Assembly: GCA_023133225.1 (NCBI GenBank)
Contig: JAGLWV010000071.1
Coordinates: 1-36,574, forward strand
Length of the DNA stretch: 36,574 nucleotides
From: Candidatus Aminicenantota bacterium
GTDB lineage: Bacteria > Acidobacteriota > Aminicenantia > Aminicenantales > Aminicenantaceae
Reading direction: 5' to 3'
Numbering within the stretch: position 1 is the first letter of the stretch; each line of letters starts with the position of its first letter. Shown here in pieces: positions 6,640-26,195 of the stretch. The position numbers and the translations under genes are program-made. Under the pieces are notes generated by a model. It saw nothing but the letters and a program-made list of their open reading frames with translations. It did not search any database and had not been told where the DNA came from.

Positions 6640-6693
6640 AAATCAGGGACATGTACCGATTTTGTGAAATCGGTAACGTGTCCCATGATTTCT
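6638..6693. repeat. 56-bp REP-like palindrome, copy A
   Basis: AGAAATCA...TGATTTCT folds into one long imperfect hairpin: AGAAATC/GATTTCT, then GGGACA/TGTCCC, then ACCGATTT/AAATCGG(T) around a TGTG loop. Identical 56-bp copies lie at 17020-17075 and 18138-18193. Here it spans exactly from the TAG stop of the plus-strand HD gene (6637-6639) to the TAA stop of the minus-strand racemase (6695-6693), so it is the entire convergent intergenic region. It may serve as a bidirectional transcription end or mRNA 3' stabiliser. No U-tract is present, so it is not a textbook intrinsic terminator. Confidence 0.9.
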
Positions 6694-7367
6694 TAATACT
6701 CTGGATGGTATCTTCTGATTTTGCTGGTGGATACTTTGTATTTTACTAAGCCAGCTGCGATGATTAAAGCACAAACGATGCCGTCTAAAACAGGAACCCC
6801 CAGTTTTTCTTCCAGATGCTTATCCAATCCTGTCATCCCAGCACATCCCAGGACGAGGACTTCTGCCATATCTTCCTTGATGGATGATTGTGCGGTCTCC
6901 ATGTACTTTAGCTCATCGCTTTTTTTAATCGTTTCTTTCCTGGGGGCTCTAACAGAGGCCAGAACATCCTGAAGGTGATATTTTCTCGCAAGGGCTTCTT
7001 TTATGGGTATAGAATGTTCGGAAGTTGTAAGGACTGAGAAGCGGTGTCCCAGCATAGAAGCAATTTTCATTGACGCTTCTGCAATTCCCACGACAGGTTT
7101 TCTGGTGATTTCTTTCATAACGTCGATATTGGGGTCATCGTGACAGGCGATGATAAAGGCATCAAATTTATCTTCATTTTCTCTAACAAGTTGTATCATC
7201 CCTGGAGCAGCTTTAATCTCATCCTCATAGGTTTCAATAAATTTCGGCGCCCCTGGCGTAGGTTTGCATGTTACCTCGAATTCTCCAGCGGAAAAACTTT
7301 CTGCGGTTCTCTGGATGGCTTCGGTCATTTCAAGGTCACTGTTTGGGTTTATGATCAATATCTTCAT
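6693..7367 (-). CDS. Hydantoin racemase-like Asp/Glu racemase family protein
   Basis: 224 aa, cytosolic. It starts MKILIINPNSDLEMT, typical of the hydantoin/allantoin racemase branch of the Asp/Glu/hydantoin racemase family. The two catalytic cysteines used in this cofactor-independent fold are both visible: C75 in FIIACHDDPNID and C175 in VLVLGCAGMTG. The expected reaction is interconversion of D and L 5-monosubstituted hydantoins (or allantoin), which fits the D-hydantoinase at the head of the same operon. An SD (TAAGGAG) overlaps the stop codon of the upstream symporter gene, so translation is probably coupled. It is the last gene of the four-gene operon, ending in palindrome copy A. Alternatives within the family (aspartate racemase, maleate isomerase) are less likely given N-terminus and context. 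Confidence 0.85.
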   Translation of the reverse strand: MKILIINPNSDLEMTEAIQRTAESFSAGEFEVTCKPTPGAPKFIETYEDEIKAAPGMIQLVRENEDKFDAFIIACHDDPNIDVMKEITRKPVVGIAEASMKIASMLGHRFSVLTTSEHSIPIKEALARKYHLQDVLASVRAPRKETIKKSDELKYMETAQSSIKEDMAEVLVLGCAGMTGLDKHLEEKLGVPVLDGIVCALIIAAGLVKYKVSTSKIRRYHPEY

Positions 7368-7378
7368 GCTCTCTCTCC

Positions 7379-8788
7379 TTATTTTGCAGTTTTTACGTAT
7401 TTTTTTGAAGCATCAATGAGCTTTGTTGCATATTTATTCCTGGCGCTTAAGTAATCATTCATTAATTTGAAGAAAACGCCGCTAAGCGCCAGGACTGCTA
7501 CCAGGTTTGGCAGCGAACAGACACCTACGGATATGGTTGCAAATACCCATAATTTATCAACATCAGCGATTCCTGCAAATATCATACCCGGGATTAAGTA
7601 GAACCATTTAAGGTATTTCATCGCTTTTTTGCTGAATACGTTTAAAACAGCGGTTTCAAAGTAAATAAAGAATCCGATTTGAGTGGACAGGCAGAAAGTC
7701 AGTATGGAAAAAGAGATTAATGCGCTTGAAAGACCTGTAGGAAGAACAGAGGAAAAAGCCTGGATGACCAGCTCTATGCCTGATCGCCCGTTCGATAAAA
7801 CACCTGTGGAGAGGACAGCAAATGATGTTATCGTGCAGATAACAATTGTATCTATGAAGACTTCAAATGCTCCCCAGAGCCCCTGTTGAAAAGGATGTTT
7901 TGTGTTTGCTGTAGCATGGGCCATGGGTGCTGTGCCAAGGCCGGCTTCGTTCGATAGCATACCTTTTGCCATGCCTTCTTTGATAGCAACAGCCACTGCC
8001 GCCCCTGCAAATCCTCCGGTGGCTGGTGCAGTTGCGAAGGCATACTTGAATATCATTCCGAACACCTCAGGAATTTTCTCCCGGTTAAGGATAAGGATTG
8101 TTAATCCGCCAAAGATATATACAACGGACATGAGAGGAACGAGCTTTCCACAGAATTGCCCGATTCGCCTAATCCCTCCTATGACCACAAAACCTGTGAT
8201 TATGGCCATCGCTCCTGTTACCATGTAAGGATTAATATTATAGCTCGTCAAAAAGGCGCGGCCTACTGTGTGTGCCTGGAGCAGGGATGCGCTTAAAACA
8301 GCATTGATAAGCACACCTATACTGAACAGCTTGGCAAGAAATTTCCAGCCTAATGCTTTATTGATGTAATACATCGGTCCGCCGTGGAGGCGGCCTTTTT
8401 CATCGATATCTCTGTAATGTACGGCGAGTGTTATCTCAGCAGTTTTAGTCATCATTCCGAGTAAAGCCAATAGCCACATCCAGAATATTGCTCCCGGTCC
8501 TCCGATTGATAAAGCTGTGGCCACGCCCGCCATATTCCCCATTCCAACAGTACTGGCTAGAGCCGTGGTTGTAGCCTGGAAGGGTGTCATCTTTCCCTTT
8601 TCATCGGCTTCTGTCTTTTCAAAGATCTTCCCAAAGGTATTCTTCAGGATAAATCTGAATTTTCTTATCTGGAAGAAACCGGATTTCATTGAGAAAAACA
8701 CAGCAACAAATGCAATAAAGACCAGAGTCCACGGTCCCCAGAGTATGTCCTCGATCTTAGAGGCAAGATCCAGTATGCTTTCTAACAA
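7379..8788 (-). CDS. AGCS family Na+/alanine (glycine) symporter
   Basis: 469 aa with about ten to eleven hydrophobic helices. Family signatures are clear: WGPWTLVFIAFVAVFFS near the N-terminus, TTALASTVGMGNMAGVATALSIGGPGAIFWMW (~72-104), KTAEITLAVHYRD, GGPMYYI and GMLSNEAGLGTAPMAHA (~274-290), the last being highly diagnostic of AGCS symporters. It should import a small neutral amino acid with Na+ across the inner membrane. The ORF begins with a TTG codon placed immediately after the TGA of the decarboxylase (TGATTG), with GAGGAG 8 nt upstream, so it is translationally coupled. Position between a PLP decarboxylase and a hydantoin racemase suggests the substrate is an amino acid or related ureide fed to that pathway; this is inference. 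Confidence 0.93.
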   Translation of the reverse strand: MLESILDLASKIEDILWGPWTLVFIAFVAVFFSMKSGFFQIRKFRFILKNTFGKIFEKTEADEKGKMTPFQATTTALASTVGMGNMAGVATALSIGGPGAIFWMWLLALLGMMTKTAEITLAVHYRDIDEKGRLHGGPMYYINKALGWKFLAKLFSIGVLINAVLSASLLQAHTVGRAFLTSYNINPYMVTGAMAIITGFVVIGGIRRIGQFCGKLVPLMSVVYIFGGLTILILNREKIPEVFGMIFKYAFATAPATGGFAGAAVAVAIKEGMAKGMLSNEAGLGTAPMAHATANTKHPFQQGLWGAFEVFIDTIVICTITSFAVLSTGVLSNGRSGIELVIQAFSSVLPTGLSSALISFSILTFCLSTQIGFFIYFETAVLNVFSKKAMKYLKWFYLIPGMIFAGIADVDKLWVFATISVGVCSLPNLVAVLALSGVFFKLMNDYLSARNKYATKLIDASKKYVKTAK

Positions 8789-10159
8789 TCAAAAGGCTCC
8801 TCTTGCCAGGAATCGGATATAAAAGATTGTTTCCATCAAAGCTTCACTAGTCACAACAGGTGAAATTGCCACCCAGCGCAGGACGGTTTTATTATCCAAT
8901 TTGGTCATCGATATAGAGCGTTTGCCCTCTGTCATGATTCTCTCATAGATGTATTGCTGCAGATGATCCAGTTCTTTTTCCGGAAAGCCCTCAGGGATGA
9001 TGCGGAAGCAGAGAATCCCTGTGTCAGGCTGGTGACACAGCTCAATATCAGGTTCGCTCTTAAGCTTATCAGCCGCAGCCTTGATCGCGTCGAGAGGAGC
9101 ACGAAGTCTTTTGATCGCTTTCGCCATTCCCTGATATCGCAGGGAAGTCACGAGGGATAGGGCAGAAAAGGGCCGGGTGGATGGAGCTGACTTCAGCCCA
9201 GGATTTGGTGTAGAATCCCTTTCAGGATTGAAATAATCGGCGTGAAGCACCATCCTGCGGAAGTCTTTCCGGCGGCGCACAAAAAGCAAAGAATTTGGGA
9301 TGGGAATTCCCAGTTGTTTGTGCGGATCCCAGGACACTGAATCCGCAAGCTCTATACCTGAAAATAAAGGCTTCCATGCAGGAACAAGGCTGTAAGCCAA
9401 TCCGTAGGCGCCATCGACATGAAGCCAGACATCGGAATTCTCACATAGCTTTACTATGGGGAGGATCGGATCAACCGAACCGGTGGAAGTCGTGCCTGCT
9501 GTAGCAACTACGCAAAAGACTTCTTTTGTTCTTCTCTGATTTTTTAAGGTTCCTTCCATGCGCTTGACATCGATCCGGCGATTTCTGTCAACATCCAGAG
9601 TCACAAGACTGTTTTCCCCAAGTCCCAAAATACGCAGGGCATGCTTTAGGGAAAAATGTGCATCACAGGAAGCTAATATCCTCAGATCGCCTGGATTTGC
9701 AAAGCCCTGCAGCCCTTTACGGGCAAAATCAAAACCGTTTTTTTCGGCTTTCCGGTGGAGTGCCATATACAAAGCTTGTTGATTGGCATAGGTGCCGCAG
9801 TACATAAACGTGGCATCAGAATCAGGGGAAAGTCCAAAGAGCCGGCATAAAGCTCTGCCGCACAGTTCTTCCAACATTGCTCCACCTGGAGAAACCTGCC
9901 AGTTTGTTACACCTTGATTGTAGGTGAGGGCAATCTTTGCCCCGAATTCAGCTCCCTCTTCAGGGAACGAATTAAACATTGATTGGAATTCAGGCAAGTC
10001 ATACCGCATCAGGTGAGGAAGGAGGCGTTCTTTGACCAGTTTGGTTAAAGTCTTCAGGGAGATTCCTTGATTTTGAAAATCAACGAGAGGTTCTAAATCC
10101 AGGGCGACTTGTTCAGGTTGGGCTCCCGAGTATATGGAGGCTTTGGTGTTATTTTTCAT
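8789..10159 (-). CDS. Group II PLP-dependent amino acid decarboxylase
   Basis: 456 aa, cytosolic. It resembles aromatic-L-amino-acid/glutamate decarboxylases (pyridoxal-deC family): TNWQVSPGGAMLEELCGRAL (~84-103), CGTYANQQALYMAL, ASCDAHFSLKHALRILG, TAGTTSTGSVDPI, the aspartate that contacts the pyridinium N in WLHVDGAYG, and the Schiff-base lysine K281 in SWDPHKQLGIP. Expected chemistry is decarboxylation of an L-amino acid to the amine and CO2; the substrate cannot be read from sequence, and some family members instead act as aldehyde synthases. A strong SD (AAGGAGG, 8 nt from ATG) precedes it, 42 bp after the hydantoinase stop. Its stop abuts the symporter start. Pairing with a hydantoinase is unusual, because an N-carbamoylase would be the expected partner. 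Confidence 0.9.
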   Translation of the reverse strand: MKNNTKASIYSGAQPEQVALDLEPLVDFQNQGISLKTLTKLVKERLLPHLMRYDLPEFQSMFNSFPEEGAEFGAKIALTYNQGVTNWQVSPGGAMLEELCGRALCRLFGLSPDSDATFMYCGTYANQQALYMALHRKAEKNGFDFARKGLQGFANPGDLRILASCDAHFSLKHALRILGLGENSLVTLDVDRNRRIDVKRMEGTLKNQRRTKEVFCVVATAGTTSTGSVDPILPIVKLCENSDVWLHVDGAYGLAYSLVPAWKPLFSGIELADSVSWDPHKQLGIPIPNSLLFVRRRKDFRRMVLHADYFNPERDSTPNPGLKSAPSTRPFSALSLVTSLRYQGMAKAIKRLRAPLDAIKAAADKLKSEPDIELCHQPDTGILCFRIIPEGFPEKELDHLQQYIYERIMTEGKRSISMTKLDNKTVLRWVAISPVVTSEALMETIFYIRFLARGAF

Positions 10160-10201
10160 GGCTGTTCCTCCTTGGAAAAAATGGCAGGCTTGATGTTAAA
10201 A

Positions 10202-11602
10202 TCATAGTGATGCCTTGATGGACTGATTGAGCCTGCGGTGGAGATAGCGGCCTCTTCCTTTCTTGGCGAAACAGCGGTCTCCATCAATGATAAGCTCACC
10301 GCGGGAGAAGACTTTTTCGATTTTACCTCTTATCTCTATGTTTTCATAAGCAGACCAGTCAGTAGCCATGTGGAGAGATTCCTGGTTCATTGTCCATTTG
10401 GCATGAGGATCAAAGATTACAATATCCGCATCAGCGCTTGGAGCGAGGGTTCCTTTTTGCGGTGCCAGACCGAACAGGTTGGCCGGCGTGGTTGAAACCA
10501 ATTCAACAAATCTTTGTAGTGTAATCCGCCCTTTGGATACACCCTCGGAATAGAGCAAGTTGAGCCGCGGTTCAATCCCCGGGATACCGTTGGGACATTT
10601 GTCGAAGCTCTCTGCACCGAAGAGTTTTGCTTCCCACGAATAAGCCGCATCATCAGAGCTTACCATCGAAACACGGCCATCTTGAAGGCCTGCCCAGAGC
10701 CGGTCCTGGATGGATTGGCTTCTGAGTGGTGGGGAGCAGATCCATTTGATGCCGTCTTCTCGTTCCAGCATTTTGTCTGTAAAGATTAAATAATGGGTAC
10801 ATGTTTCAGCGAAAACATCCTGACCTTCACTCCGGGCCGCTCCAACAAGCTCAATGCCTTTGTCTGTTGCCATATGAACAATAAAGAGACGGCTCCCTGT
10901 TTCCCGCACCAGTTGAATACAGCGGCTGATGGCTCTATTCTCGGCTTCCGGGGGCCTGCTTTTGGCATGGTAGCCGGGTCTTGTCAGACCTGAATGGATC
11001 ATCCGCGGAACGTTTTCTTCTATCATATCGTTGTCTTCGGCATGAACCATTAACATGCCGCCAGCGTCTCGCAAACGTTCTAAAATACATCTTAAATCCG
11101 AGTCTTCGACCATAAGTCCCTCATTGCGGTAAGTCATGTAGCACTTGATTGTCGGAGCTCCTTCTTCAACTAAAAGTGGGATCTCATCTAAGACCTCTGG
11201 TCTGGGCTCCGTGATAACGGAATGTATTCCCCAGTCAACCAAAGCCTTCCCTTCGGCTTCTTCTTTTTTGTTTTTAAGAGTGCTCATCAGATTATCGCCG
11301 GGACTCTGATTTGAGAAATCGATAATACTTGTAACACCTCCATAGGCAGCTGCCAGCGTGCCAGTGTAGTAATCATGCACGCTGGTGGTGTTCATAAATT
11401 CATCGTTGAAGTGGACATGGGTATCGACTGCACCTGGAAGCACGAGAAGACCTGCCGCATCAATTTCAGCATCAACCTTATGATCTGAAAGGTTGTCTAA
11501 AGCTGCGATTCGCTCACCTCGAATAAGAACATCCTGTCGCGAGACAGTTTGTCCCAAAACGACTGTGCCTCCTCTGATCAATGTTGTCTTTGTTTTTGTC
11601 AC
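10202..11602 (-). CDS. D-hydantoinase / dihydropyrimidinase-type amidohydrolase
   Basis: 466 aa from the GTG at 11602. Metal-site motifs of cyclic amidohydrolases are all present: DTHVHFND, the carboxylated-lysine segment TIKCYMTYRN, MVHAEDND, FIVHMATDKG and SSDDAAYSW. PNGIPGIEPRLNLLYSEGV and TLAPSADADIVIFDP match dihydropyrimidinase/D-hydantoinase more than allantoinase. It should open a hydantoin or dihydropyrimidine ring to the N-carbamoyl acid. The ORF-track start (TTG at 11659) is rejected: that TTG is part of a well-placed -35 box (TTGACT, 17 bp, TAAGAT), while the GTG at 11602 has AAGAAGGG about 6 nt upstream and leads directly into the conserved LIRGGTVV strand. It is the first gene of the operon hydantoinase - decarboxylase - symporter - racemase. 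Confidence 0.9.
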   Translation of the reverse strand: MTKTKTTLIRGGTVVLGQTVSRQDVLIRGERIAALDNLSDHKVDAEIDAAGLLVLPGAVDTHVHFNDEFMNTTSVHDYYTGTLAAAYGGVTSIIDFSNQSPGDNLMSTLKNKKEEAEGKALVDWGIHSVITEPRPEVLDEIPLLVEEGAPTIKCYMTYRNEGLMVEDSDLRCILERLRDAGGMLMVHAEDNDMIEENVPRMIHSGLTRPGYHAKSRPPEAENRAISRCIQLVRETGSRLFIVHMATDKGIELVGAARSEGQDVFAETCTHYLIFTDKMLEREDGIKWICSPPLRSQSIQDRLWAGLQDGRVSMVSSDDAAYSWEAKLFGAESFDKCPNGIPGIEPRLNLLYSEGVSKGRITLQRFVELVSTTPANLFGLAPQKGTLAPSADADIVIFDPHAKWTMNQESLHMATDWSAYENIEIRGKIEKVFSRGELIIDGDRCFAKKGRGRYLHRRLNQSIKASL

Positions 11603-11630
11603 GATTTTCCCTTCTTTTTTTAGCGAAAGA

Positions 11631-11659
11631 ATCTTAACACCCAAAAATTCTGAAGTCAA
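11631..11659 (-). promoter_or_regulatory. Sigma70-like promoter of the hydantoinase operon
   Basis: On the minus strand, TTGACT (11659-11654), a 17-bp spacer and TAAGAT (11636-11631) lie so that a transcript would start about 20 nt before the GTG at 11602. The -35 box lies in one arm of the inverted repeat 11643-11722. Confidence 0.5.
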
Positions 11660-23382: not shown

Positions 23383-25029
23383 ATGGCTTTAGTTGATTAT
23401 TGCGTTGTTGTTATTTTTTTAGTTCTCATTTTTTGGGCTGGTTCTTATTTTTATAAATGGATCAAACATCCGGATGATTTTTTCGTTTCAGGCCGGCAGC
23501 TCACCCCATTTATTCTGGCTGCGACCATCACAGCCACCAATGTTAATCTGTACAGCTTTGTTGGCCAGGCAGGGGTGGCTTACAGTCATGGTATCTCCAT
23601 TATCTGGCAGACCTGGACGGGTAATATGGCCCTGGTACTGGCAGGTTTATTTATTGTTCCACTTTTCAGAACGCTTAAGGTCAGGACAATTCCCGAATTT
23701 TTGGAATTGAGGTACAACCAGGGCGTCAGGGTCCTCATCGGAATACTCTGGATATTCAGGTTAATCTTCTGGTTAGGTGTTGTTTTGTACACGGCCGCAG
23801 TTGCCGCTCAAACCATCACCGGCATAAAATCATTCACCGTCTGGGTTGCCGTATTCGCCCTGATCGCCATTTTTTACACCATGATGGGAGGAATGTGGGC
23901 AGTGGCATTAACAGATACAATTCAGTTCGTCTTGATGCTCCTTGGTGCCCTCCTGATTCTTCCTATTGTCATGAGTGCAGTGGGCTGGTTGCCTGGTTTG
24001 GTAGAGAAATTGCCCGCTCAAAATTTACAGTTGGTCACTCATGCAGGACTCTACAACTGGAAATTCGTTCTGGCCATTAGTATTCTAGGATTGCAATGGG
24101 CGAGTCTTGATCAGGGGTTATTGCAGAGAGCGTTTAGCGCAAAAGACACCAAAACAGTAACCAGAGGAATGGTCCTGGCAGGCATTATTACCACTCCCTT
24201 TGCGCTTCTCTGGAATTTCCCTGGATTGGCCGCTTCCGTGCTTCATCCGGGATTGAGCAATCCTGATTCGGCCATCCCCTTTTTAATTGCCAATCATCTG
24301 CCGTCTTTTTTTCTGGGACTGGTTGTCTGCGGGCTTTTAGCCTCTCAGCTCTCAACCATTGATTCCAACTTGAATGCGGTGGTCACTCTTTATGTCAACG
24401 ACATATATACAAGAGTCATAAAAAAGGAAGCCTCTCCTCAGCTGACTTTGAAGGTGGTCAGAATAGCGACTGTCTTTTTTGGCCTGCTGATCATTGCTTT
24501 TTCCTATCTTGTGCCTAGATTAGGAGGCGCTGTCCAGGCATATTTAACCGTCATTGGTATCATGGATATGCCTTTGTTCGTCGTCGCTGTTGTCTACGGC
24601 TTGTTGTGGAAAAGAGTGAACTGGCAGGGAGCTGTAGGAGGCTATCTGATCGGGGCATTAAGCGGGACGGTCGTGAGATTTGTCTTTCACGGCGATTTAG
24701 CGACCTCAACTCTGATCAGTGCCGCAGCGGCTTTAATTTCCTGCCCCCTGATCAGCATATTTTTCCCGCGTACTTCTCCGCATAAAATCCGATTGATCTG
24801 GGAGAAGAAAAAAGAATTCAGCCGGAAGAGTGAAGAGCTCGGGCACTATAAGATTATTCCTGTTTCCATTGGAGGAAGGATAGGTCTGGGAATGTTAGGT
24901 GTGGGTTTGATCACATTTTTTGCGGGAGTCATATCTGGAAGCATCCCTCATCCTCAAGCTTCTTCAATTGCTTTAGCGGGAATGATCTTATTTTTTTTAG
25001 GAGGATTAGTAAGGATCAAATTTACCTAA
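23383..25029 (+). CDS. Sodium:solute symporter (SSS family)
   Basis: 548 aa, about 13-14 hydrophobic helices. Diagnostic stretches: DDFFVSGRQLTPFILAATITATNVNLYSFVGQAGVAY (~30-66; Na+-site region of SSS transporters), RTLKVRTIPEFLELRYN, FYTMMGGMWAVALTDTIQFVLML (the conserved GG.W.V..TD..Q segment) and CGLLASQLSTIDSNLNAVVTLYVNDIY (~311-337). It should drive Na+-coupled uptake of a sugar, amino acid or carboxylate; the substrate is not deducible. The following gene, 28 bp downstream, is a GlmU-like nucleotidyltransferase with its own membrane segment, hinting at an amino sugar or sugar-acid pathway (inference). ATG start, weak purine-rich SD (GGAAAAG). Confidence 0.92.
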   Translation: MALVDYCVVVIFLVLIFWAGSYFYKWIKHPDDFFVSGRQLTPFILAATITATNVNLYSFVGQAGVAYSHGISIIWQTWTGNMALVLAGLFIVPLFRTLKVRTIPEFLELRYNQGVRVLIGILWIFRLIFWLGVVLYTAAVAAQTITGIKSFTVWVAVFALIAIFYTMMGGMWAVALTDTIQFVLMLLGALLILPIVMSAVGWLPGLVEKLPAQNLQLVTHAGLYNWKFVLAISILGLQWASLDQGLLQRAFSAKDTKTVTRGMVLAGIITTPFALLWNFPGLAASVLHPGLSNPDSAIPFLIANHLPSFFLGLVVCGLLASQLSTIDSNLNAVVTLYVNDIYTRVIKKEASPQLTLKVVRIATVFFGLLIIAFSYLVPRLGGAVQAYLTVIGIMDMPLFVVAVVYGLLWKRVNWQGAVGGYLIGALSGTVVRFVFHGDLATSTLISAAAALISCPLISIFFPRTSPHKIRLIWEKKKEFSRKSEELGHYKIIPVSIGGRIGLGMLGVGLITFFAGVISGSIPHPQASSIALAGMILFFLGGLVRIKFT

Positions 25030-25049
25030 CCTGGATTATTCATAAAAAT
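25030..25049 (+). repeat. Half copy of the dispersed repeat
   Basis: CCTGGATTATTCATAAAAA matches the CCTGAATTATTCATAAAAA half of the 34-bp repeat (36433-36466) with one change. It occupies the position where the ribosome binding site of the next gene should be. Confidence 0.6.
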
Positions 25050-25057
25050 TAATAAAA

Positions 25058-25927
25058 ATGTATTTTGACTGGCTAACTTGGAGCGTCTGGCTGATAGGCT
25101 TCGTCATCCTCATCATCTGGATTTATCTCCCTCTAAAGGAATTCAGAAAGTTATACAAAACCAGAAAATCCGGGGGAAAGGGGGAGGAAACGCCGAAAAC
25201 TGCCGCTGTAATTCTGGCTGCCGGTAGGAGCACGCGCATGAAGTCTGATTTAAACAAGGTTTTATTGCCCGTGCTGGGAAGACCGATAATCAGATACCAG
25301 ATAGATGCCTTAAAAGAGGTCAAAGTTGAGAGTATCGTTGTTGTTATTGGATACCAGGCCGATAGGGTAAAAGAGGAACTGGGTCGTGAAGTGGAATATG
25401 TTTATCAGAGAGAGCAGTTAGGTACGGGTCATGCTTTACAACAGGCGGAAGAAAAACTGAAAAGTTTTGGCGAAAACCTAGACTTAATCGTCACTGTAGG
25501 CGATAATCCTTATCTAAAACCACAAAATATAAGGCGGCTGATTGACGATTACCGTAAGAGTGGAGCTGATGCGGCCTTTATTTCAGTTGTTTTCGAATCT
25601 CCTCCTCCTTATGGCCGGGTGATCAGGGATAAGCAGGGGAAAGTCAAAAAAATTGTGGAAGAGTTAGATGCAATCCCGGAGCAGTTAAAGATCAAAGAGG
25701 TTAATTCTTCCATTTATTGTTTTAAAGCCTCTGCTGTCTTTCCCCTTCTCTCAGAAATTAAAAACGACAATGTAAAAAAAGAGTACTATTTAACGGATAT
25801 CATAGAAATATTGGCATCGAGAGGTTTTCATGTGGAAGCCCTGATATCCAGTGACCAAAAGGTGGCAAAAGGAATCAACACCCTGGAAGAGCTGGACGCC
25901 GCAGAAAAGGAACTGAAAGAAAGCTAA
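25058..25927 (+). CDS. Membrane-anchored GlmU-like sugar-1-phosphate nucleotidyltransferase
   Basis: 289 aa. One TM helix at ~8-27 (WLIGFVILIIWIYLPL) and a basic linker are followed by a nucleotidyltransferase domain from ~48: VILAAGRSTRMKSDLNKVLLPVLGRP (G56, R60, K68 region of the NTP-binding loop), YVYQREQLGTGHALQQA, VTVGDNPYL (metal-binding D) and YGRVIRD. This is closest to the uridylyltransferase half of GlmU. The left-handed beta-helix acetyltransferase half is absent, so it can make at most a nucleotide sugar (UDP-GlcNAc-like), not acetylate. The TM helix plus charged tail resembles the tiny accessory proteins often encoded next to SSS symporters, here apparently fused to the enzyme. 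No SD is visible before the ATG; a repeat half lies there instead, so coupling to the symporter gene is likely. Confidence 0.82.
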   Translation: MYFDWLTWSVWLIGFVILIIWIYLPLKEFRKLYKTRKSGGKGEETPKTAAVILAAGRSTRMKSDLNKVLLPVLGRPIIRYQIDALKEVKVESIVVVIGYQADRVKEELGREVEYVYQREQLGTGHALQQAEEKLKSFGENLDLIVTVGDNPYLKPQNIRRLIDDYRKSGADAAFISVVFESPPPYGRVIRDKQGKVKKIVEELDAIPEQLKIKEVNSSIYCFKASAVFPLLSEIKNDNVKKEYYLTDIIEILASRGFHVEALISSDQKVAKGINTLEELDAAEKELKES

Positions 25928-25944: not shown

Positions 25945-25987
25945 TCGCTAGCCCTGTTAGTTTTGATACATCTAACAGGGCCAGCGA
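25945..25987. repeat. Long hairpin downstream of the GlmU-like gene
   Basis: TCGCTAGCCCTGTTAG and CTAACAGGGCCAGCGA pair over 16 positions with a single mismatch around an 11-nt loop. The stem is strong, but no T-run follows on either strand, so it could be a factor-assisted terminator or mRNA-end stabiliser rather than a simple intrinsic terminator. Confidence 0.7.
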
Positions 25988-26044
25988 CCAAAGGGAGCAC
26001 ATAGAAAGTGGGGCAGTAAAAAAGGGCAGTAAAAAAGGGGACAT

Positions 26045-26096
26045 AAAAAAGGGGACAGGCTACTTTTTTCCTAAAAAGTTGCCTGTCCCCTTTTTT
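26045..26096. repeat. GGGGACAGG-type REP palindrome, possible bidirectional terminator
   Basis: AAAAAAGGGGACAGGC pairs with GCCTGTCCCCTTTTTT, and an inner ACTTTTT/AAAAAGT stem closes on a TCCT loop. The A-run before and T-run after the stem give a terminator shape on both strands. Partial copies (GGGCAGTAAAAAAGGG, GGGGACATAAAAAAGGGG) precede it. Such elements are often linked to REP-associated tyrosine transposases (RAYT); none is in the window. Confidence 0.8.
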
Positions 26097-26195
26097 ACTT
26101 TCATTGCGGGCGGCCAAAGGAAGCATACCAAGTTAATCACAATAAAGTTTTCTGTCCCTTTTTTCACTGCCTTCAATTTTGAACGTTAGACATTG

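Follow-up and report, generated by a model that had tools for sequence, protein, structure and literature searches.

The known small subunits of bacterial sodium:solute symporter (SSS) family transporters, e.g., those of the VC_2705 type, are small hydrophobic proteins encoded alongside the symporter. Sugar salvage by a kinase together with a nucleotidyltransferase is represented by the AmgK/MurU route. In bifunctional GlmU (TIGR01173/PRK14354), a uridylyltransferase domain is joined to a C-terminal acetyltransferase of left-handed beta-helix fold. MAP17 (PDZK1IP1) is the single-helix subunit of human SGLT2; SGLT2 depends for its function on this helix, which touches TM13 (PMC10803289). In the sugar-salvage enzyme FKP, kinase and pyrophosphorylase are fused (PMC12732313).

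A locus that can be compared with these systems is present in a Candidatus Aminicenantota bacterium, within a window of 36,574 nucleotides (contig JAGLWV010000071.1), by which the whole stretch of DNA analysed here is meant. It encodes an SSS symporter and, behind it, a transmembrane helix fused to a GlmU-type nucleotidyltransferase. The fold of the uridylyltransferase domain is common to GlmU and this enzyme, which differs from GlmU by the missing beta-helix half, a score below the GlmU cut-off, changed sugar-side motifs, and the N-terminal helix. What the helix shares with MAP17 is its probable role as a one-helix auxiliary subunit that would bind a sugar symporter of the SSS family (SLC5). 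The family of the helix differs from MAP17 in being bacterial, about 40-60 aa long, encoded beside the symporter and, once, fused to an enzyme. No sequence relation between the two was detected, and no kinship is claimed; in architecture, the family may be a bacterial counterpart of MAP17 and would work alike. From the VC_2705-type subunits it is set apart by its single helix, a motif of its own, and the lack of any Pfam model matching above chance. The order of reactions proposed here, from free sugar through sugar-1-phosphate to nucleotide sugar, is that of AmgK/MurU and FKP. In those systems kinase and nucleotidyltransferase are partnered or fused, whereas in the window the nucleotidyltransferase is fused to the accessory helix, with a separate kinase.

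The symporter gene and the fused reading frame

The preliminary description of this DNA, made from its letters and reading frames, had placed an SSS symporter beside a GlmU-type fusion. Both reading frames are present (Table 1), and they match PF00474/TIGR00813 and the GlmU models, respectively. The first product is a member of the SSS family. Its residues 33-424 align with positions 1-406 of PF00474 (E 1.5e-50), the SSF domain extending across the full core, and its TIGR00813 score of 210.5 bits lies above the cut-off of 184. Relatives in the PDB are vSGLT, SGLT1/2, and SiaT, and the nearest named match in the symporter search is from Candidatus Aminicenantes bacterium bin112. The closest orthologue, in genome G013, is 81% identical, and those of other lineages are 51-62% identical. 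The genome of the window (G000) is a fragmented assembly of 406 contigs with 79.65% completeness. A gap of 28 nt separates the symporter frame from the fusion frame.

Table 1. Positions of the symporter gene, the fusion gene with its segments, and the adjacent inverted repeat in the window
Feature	Coordinates	Strand	Basis
SSS (sodium:solute symporter) family transporter, 548 aa	23383..25029	+	PF00474, TIGR00813
Fusion ORF, 289 aa: accessory transmembrane helix and GlmU-type nucleotidyltransferase	25058..25927	+	
Residues 1-44, single-TM accessory segment (MYFDWLTWSVWLIGFVILIIWIYLPLKEFRKLYKTRK...), basic tail	25058..25189	+	alignments, profile searches
Residues 39-46, flexible linker	25172..25195	+	AlphaFold2 pLDDT
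Residues 47-289, nucleotidyltransferase domain without left-handed beta-helix acetyltransferase	25196..25924	+	
Inverted repeat, 16-nt arms, directly 3' of fusion gene; possible end-of-operon hairpin	25945..25987	+	

The fusion of helix and enzyme in one chain is confirmed. Hydropathy of the 289-aa chain gives one transmembrane segment only, at residues 6-24. In the AlphaFold2 model, a helix spans residues 5-37, confidence is lowest at 34-41, and the enzyme behind this stretch is predicted well (mean pLDDT 90.2). ATG, GTG, and TTG are absent in all frames from 25078 to 25238, so that the enzyme can be produced only behind the helix. The fused form was encountered in a single genome; all other clear matches to the helix are stand-alone small ORFs.

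A second hairpin, at 26044-26097, lies shortly 3' of the fusion gene. It has 25-nt arms (TAAAAAAGGGGACAGGCTACTTTTT) that are 96% complementary and a 4-nt loop. The hairpin core AAAGGGGACAGGCTAC occurs in 31 copies in the G000 assembly (0 for the reversed control pattern), and the hairpin is a dispersed REP-like element.

The single-helix family and its association with the symporter

With the fusion as the sole query, its N-terminal 38 residues matched a stand-alone 60-codon frame in G013 (68% identity, 3.9e-14), and weaker helix matches were obtained in G045 (5.3e-9) and G040 (2.1e-4). Each of the three frames follows a gene for a symporter homologous to that of the window (identity 81, 54, and 51%, respectively). 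The likeness of the helix to transporter-accessory proteins, which had been proposed from its charged tail, is in this way confirmed by homology to small ORFs beside the same symporter subfamily. These frames were aligned with small ORFs that precede the symporter gene in Ignavibacteriota and KSB1. Among the ten aligned members, D4, W11, G14, W21, E28, and F29 are invariant, and the window helix combines the motif M-x2-D...W...G...W...P-x2-EF with adjacency to the window symporter subfamily. Searches of Pfam, NCBIfam, and the PDB with the helix gave chance-level matches only, no NCBIfam model being matched, and in the literature that was searched, no account of a helper of this kind for bacterial SSS symporters turned up. 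The window helix is not generic; it belongs to an unannotated family.

The members are roughly 40-60-aa single-helix proteins, which stand alone in Acidobacteriota, Ignavibacteria-type Bacteroidota, KSB1, and Planctomycetes. Among 396 genomes of the phylum of the window, the helix profile gave five clear matches; the window is one of these, and another is truncated by the end of its contig. The profile matched 3 of 396 genomes in the phylum of the Ignavibacteriota genome, 9 of 82 in the group of the KSB1 genome (one match degenerate), and 3 of 392 in the phylum of the Planctomycetes genome. Weak matches inside long proteins (G356, G234, G227, G858, G664, and G659) were discarded as chance.

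All 13 intact members retrieved by the helix profile alone (G210, G293, G600, G862, G896, G915, G900, G866, G909, G910, G907, G1036, and G974) have a same-strand neighbour, upstream or downstream, that is homologous to the window symporter; in G293, a PfkB-type kinase gene lies between helix and symporter. In the reverse check, a helix gene was present at every sufficiently assembled locus whose symporter is at least about 42% identical to that of the window, and absent from the loci of six more distant symporters (27% identity or less). This adjacency, together with conservation at specific positions that goes beyond hydrophobicity alone, would be expected of a dedicated subunit. The predicted topology places the C-terminus of the helix inside and the N-terminus of the symporter outside, so that joining the two into one model chain by reading through a stop, at loci where they share a frame, would not be meaningful. 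The N-terminus of the helix is predicted outside and its basic tail inside.

The match in G899 (L127) was rejected as a family member and counted as an exception, being degenerate, with stops, and with no symporter within 5 kb. The degenerate helix lies beside a GHMP kinase and a GH109-like gene, like a decayed version of the locus from which the symporter is missing.

Several helix-symporter loci (L050, L051, L124-L126, L132, and L133), some of them cut by contig ends, were found with neither a kinase nor a nucleotidyltransferase alongside, which argues that the helix is not specific to salvage. The pair is located beside a URO-D-like protein in L124 (and, by similarity, in L125) and beside a 442-aa protein without a Pfam match in L126. 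From these last three loci, the pair of accessory protein and symporter seems to handle further substrates as well.

The nucleotidyltransferase and its probable kinase partners

The acetyltransferase half of GlmU had been described as absent from the fusion, and it is: only the first ~240 of ~450 positions of the GlmU models are aligned (match end at ~238 of ~452), the TIGR01173 score is 222.8 bits against a cut-off of 366.85, and the GlmU profiles detect no C-terminal left-handed beta-helix. The uridylyltransferase fold is present. The closest fold to the modelled enzyme is that of Streptococcus pneumoniae GlmU (1g97; E 1.4e-30, 1.4 A rmsd over 241 columns), and identity to solved GlmUs is ~33-36%. 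The phosphate-binding loop and the metal and uridine-side motifs, which we take to have these roles in GlmU, are kept. The sugar-side motifs are altered, reading PPPYGR and NSS versus NPxGFGR and NxG in housekeeping relatives.

In the enzyme tree, the sequences from the window, G210, G044, f8, and f9 form one clade (support 99/96) apart from the housekeeping GlmUs of 455-458 aa. The fusion enzyme belongs to a clade of GlmU-type, kinase-linked nucleotidyltransferases of the salvage type in Aminicenantia. The f9 relatives, which have a short beta-helix tail, adjoin a galactokinase-like GHMP kinase. At the f8 locus L141, where the enzyme was read directly and has the same kind of tail, a canonical galactokinase is adjacent. 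Nucleotidyltransferases of 322-336 aa with a short beta-helix tail are paired with galactokinase-like kinases in L143, L146, L148, and L141, from other Aminicenantia families. This gene pair is a conserved two-gene module of nucleotide-sugar salvage, apparently not described before.

A split arrangement, with a small transmembrane protein and a separate nucleotidyltransferase by an SSS gene, had been suggested as a check on the preliminary description and was found in G210, a genome of the same class. Its operon consists of the symporter, a 39-aa helix, a stand-alone 244-aa GlmU-type enzyme, and a 370-aa GHMP kinase. The helix and enzyme genes overlap by 4 nt, and the enzyme is 55% identical to that of the window. 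This operon is the split version of the fusion seen in the window. In the Ignavibacterial loci (L047-L049, L118, and L119), the helix gene is followed by those for the symporter, the GHMP kinase, and a quite different nucleotidyltransferase, 24% identical to that of the window; set beside the GlmU-type enzyme of G210, it suggests that two enzyme types have filled the same step. The KSB1 loci L120-L123 contain symporter, helix, and kinase. The sugar-binding signature of galactokinases (PF10509) is recognised in the GHMP kinase along with GHMP domains, but its score lies below the galactokinase cut-off.

In G013, the helix is present and no nucleotidyltransferase lies beside it. The symporter tree groups the window with G013, and G210 with G045 and G040. 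Since the window and G210 symporters are not close sisters, the enzyme would have been either recruited twice or lost repeatedly. Because the outgroup branches of this tree are long and its deep nodes weakly supported, only these two groups are used. The enzyme of G044 is 50% identical to that of the window, lacks the helix, and adjoins an fhs-like gene; the G044 genome has no close homologue of the window symporter. Orthologues without the helix or away from symporters had been named as speaking against the preliminary description. Technically, G044 provides such a case, which shows no more than that the enzyme moves between contexts and does not undo the evidence from the split operon.

The substrate of a nucleotidyltransferase is a sugar-1-phosphate, so that a kinase-nucleotidyltransferase salvage pathway requires an anomeric kinase as well, and none is encoded at the window locus. 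A kinase fragment 45% identical to the G210 kinase is located at the end of contig C394 of G000 (L095), beside an EF-P-like gene. A GEHQDY-type GHMP kinase next to an elongation factor P-like gene is found in most Aminicenantia examined (L095, L093, L094, L097, and L098).

Proposed sugar salvage at the symporter and alternative readings

The galactokinase-type partners may point to galactose or an N-acetylhexosamine as the substrate. GH109-like proteins adjoin L048, L049 (by sequence similarity), L118, L122, and L127, and a NagB-like gene is found at G293, which favours amino sugars. Positions of vSGLT that are presumably sugar contacts (e.g., E88 and K294) are occupied by different residues in the alignment of the window symporter, which makes a hexose somewhat less likely. 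We infer that the imported sugar is of the galactose, GalNAc, or GlcNAc type.

The best explanation, to which we assign a probability of about 0.6, is that symporter and fusion carry out the uptake and the final activation step in a route of sugar salvage, with the enzyme probably held at the symporter via the accessory helix. The Na+-coupled symporter would bring in a hexose or amino sugar, and a dedicated single-helix protein would pack against it. A soluble galactokinase-like GHMP kinase would phosphorylate C1, and the GlmU-type enzyme would convert the resulting sugar-1-phosphate into a nucleotide sugar, probably a UDP-sugar. In the lineage of the window, the nucleotidyltransferase fused behind the helix would be anchored at the cytosolic side of the membrane, probably at the symporter, beside the transporter exit. 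A kinase encoded elsewhere in the genome would complete the route.

An import-and-activate unit had already been proposed for this locus. The tie between helix family and symporter subfamily and the split operon in G210 speak for this part; the kinase step was missing from the proposal, and the window contains no kinase. The earlier reading is thus partly supported, right in parts and incomplete in its chemistry. The stronger form of the idea, a physically coupled unit in which an unnamed SSS accessory helix family is fused, in one lineage, to the salvage nucleotidyltransferase of the imported sugar and tethers it to the importer, stands at about even odds.

The helix could also be a mere membrane anchor that keeps the enzyme at the membrane for a later step, such as polysaccharide or lipid-carrier glycosylation, with no symporter contact. 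A single transmembrane segment with a basic tail suffices as an anchor, and GlmU-type products feed membrane glycosyltransferases. However, specific positions of the helix are conserved, and its enzyme-free, stand-alone homologues still adjoin the symporter, which suggests that the original role of the helix was with the transporter; this alternative is considered unlikely. Still less probable is that the fused enzyme serves the cell as its GlcNAc-1-phosphate uridylyltransferase, taking the place of the housekeeping GlmU in an incidental symporter neighbourhood. A full-length GlmU was not found in the incomplete G000 assembly, and the enzyme is nearest to GlmU in fold and sequence. Yet that assembly is only about 80% complete, the same-genus genome G001 encodes a 464-aa GlmU, and the window enzyme falls outside the housekeeping clade, with the kinase-linked enzymes.

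Very improbable is a sequencing or assembly error that joined two separate neighbouring genes, such as those overlapping in G210, even though the linker lies in G-rich runs of a fragmented assembly. The reading frame runs on without a break through a linker of ordinary make-up, and as the stretch is devoid of start codons, a slip by one base would not give the enzyme a plausible start of its own; a frame slip is an unlikely source of the fusion.

The salvage reading brings out an unannotated family of very small membrane proteins tied to one SSS subfamily in several phyla, and the natural fusion serves as a 'Rosetta stone' that links this accessory subunit to nucleotide-sugar salvage. Physical coupling of secondary-transport uptake to activation becomes testable, and a substrate hypothesis is gained for a symporter group of uncultured bacteria.

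Elsewhere in the window, at 6693-11659 on the minus strand, an Asp/Glu/hydantoin racemase, a Na+:alanine-type symporter, a PLP-dependent decarboxylase-like protein, and an amidohydrolase are encoded, with the appearance of a cluster for the uptake and use of hydantoins or cyclic amides.
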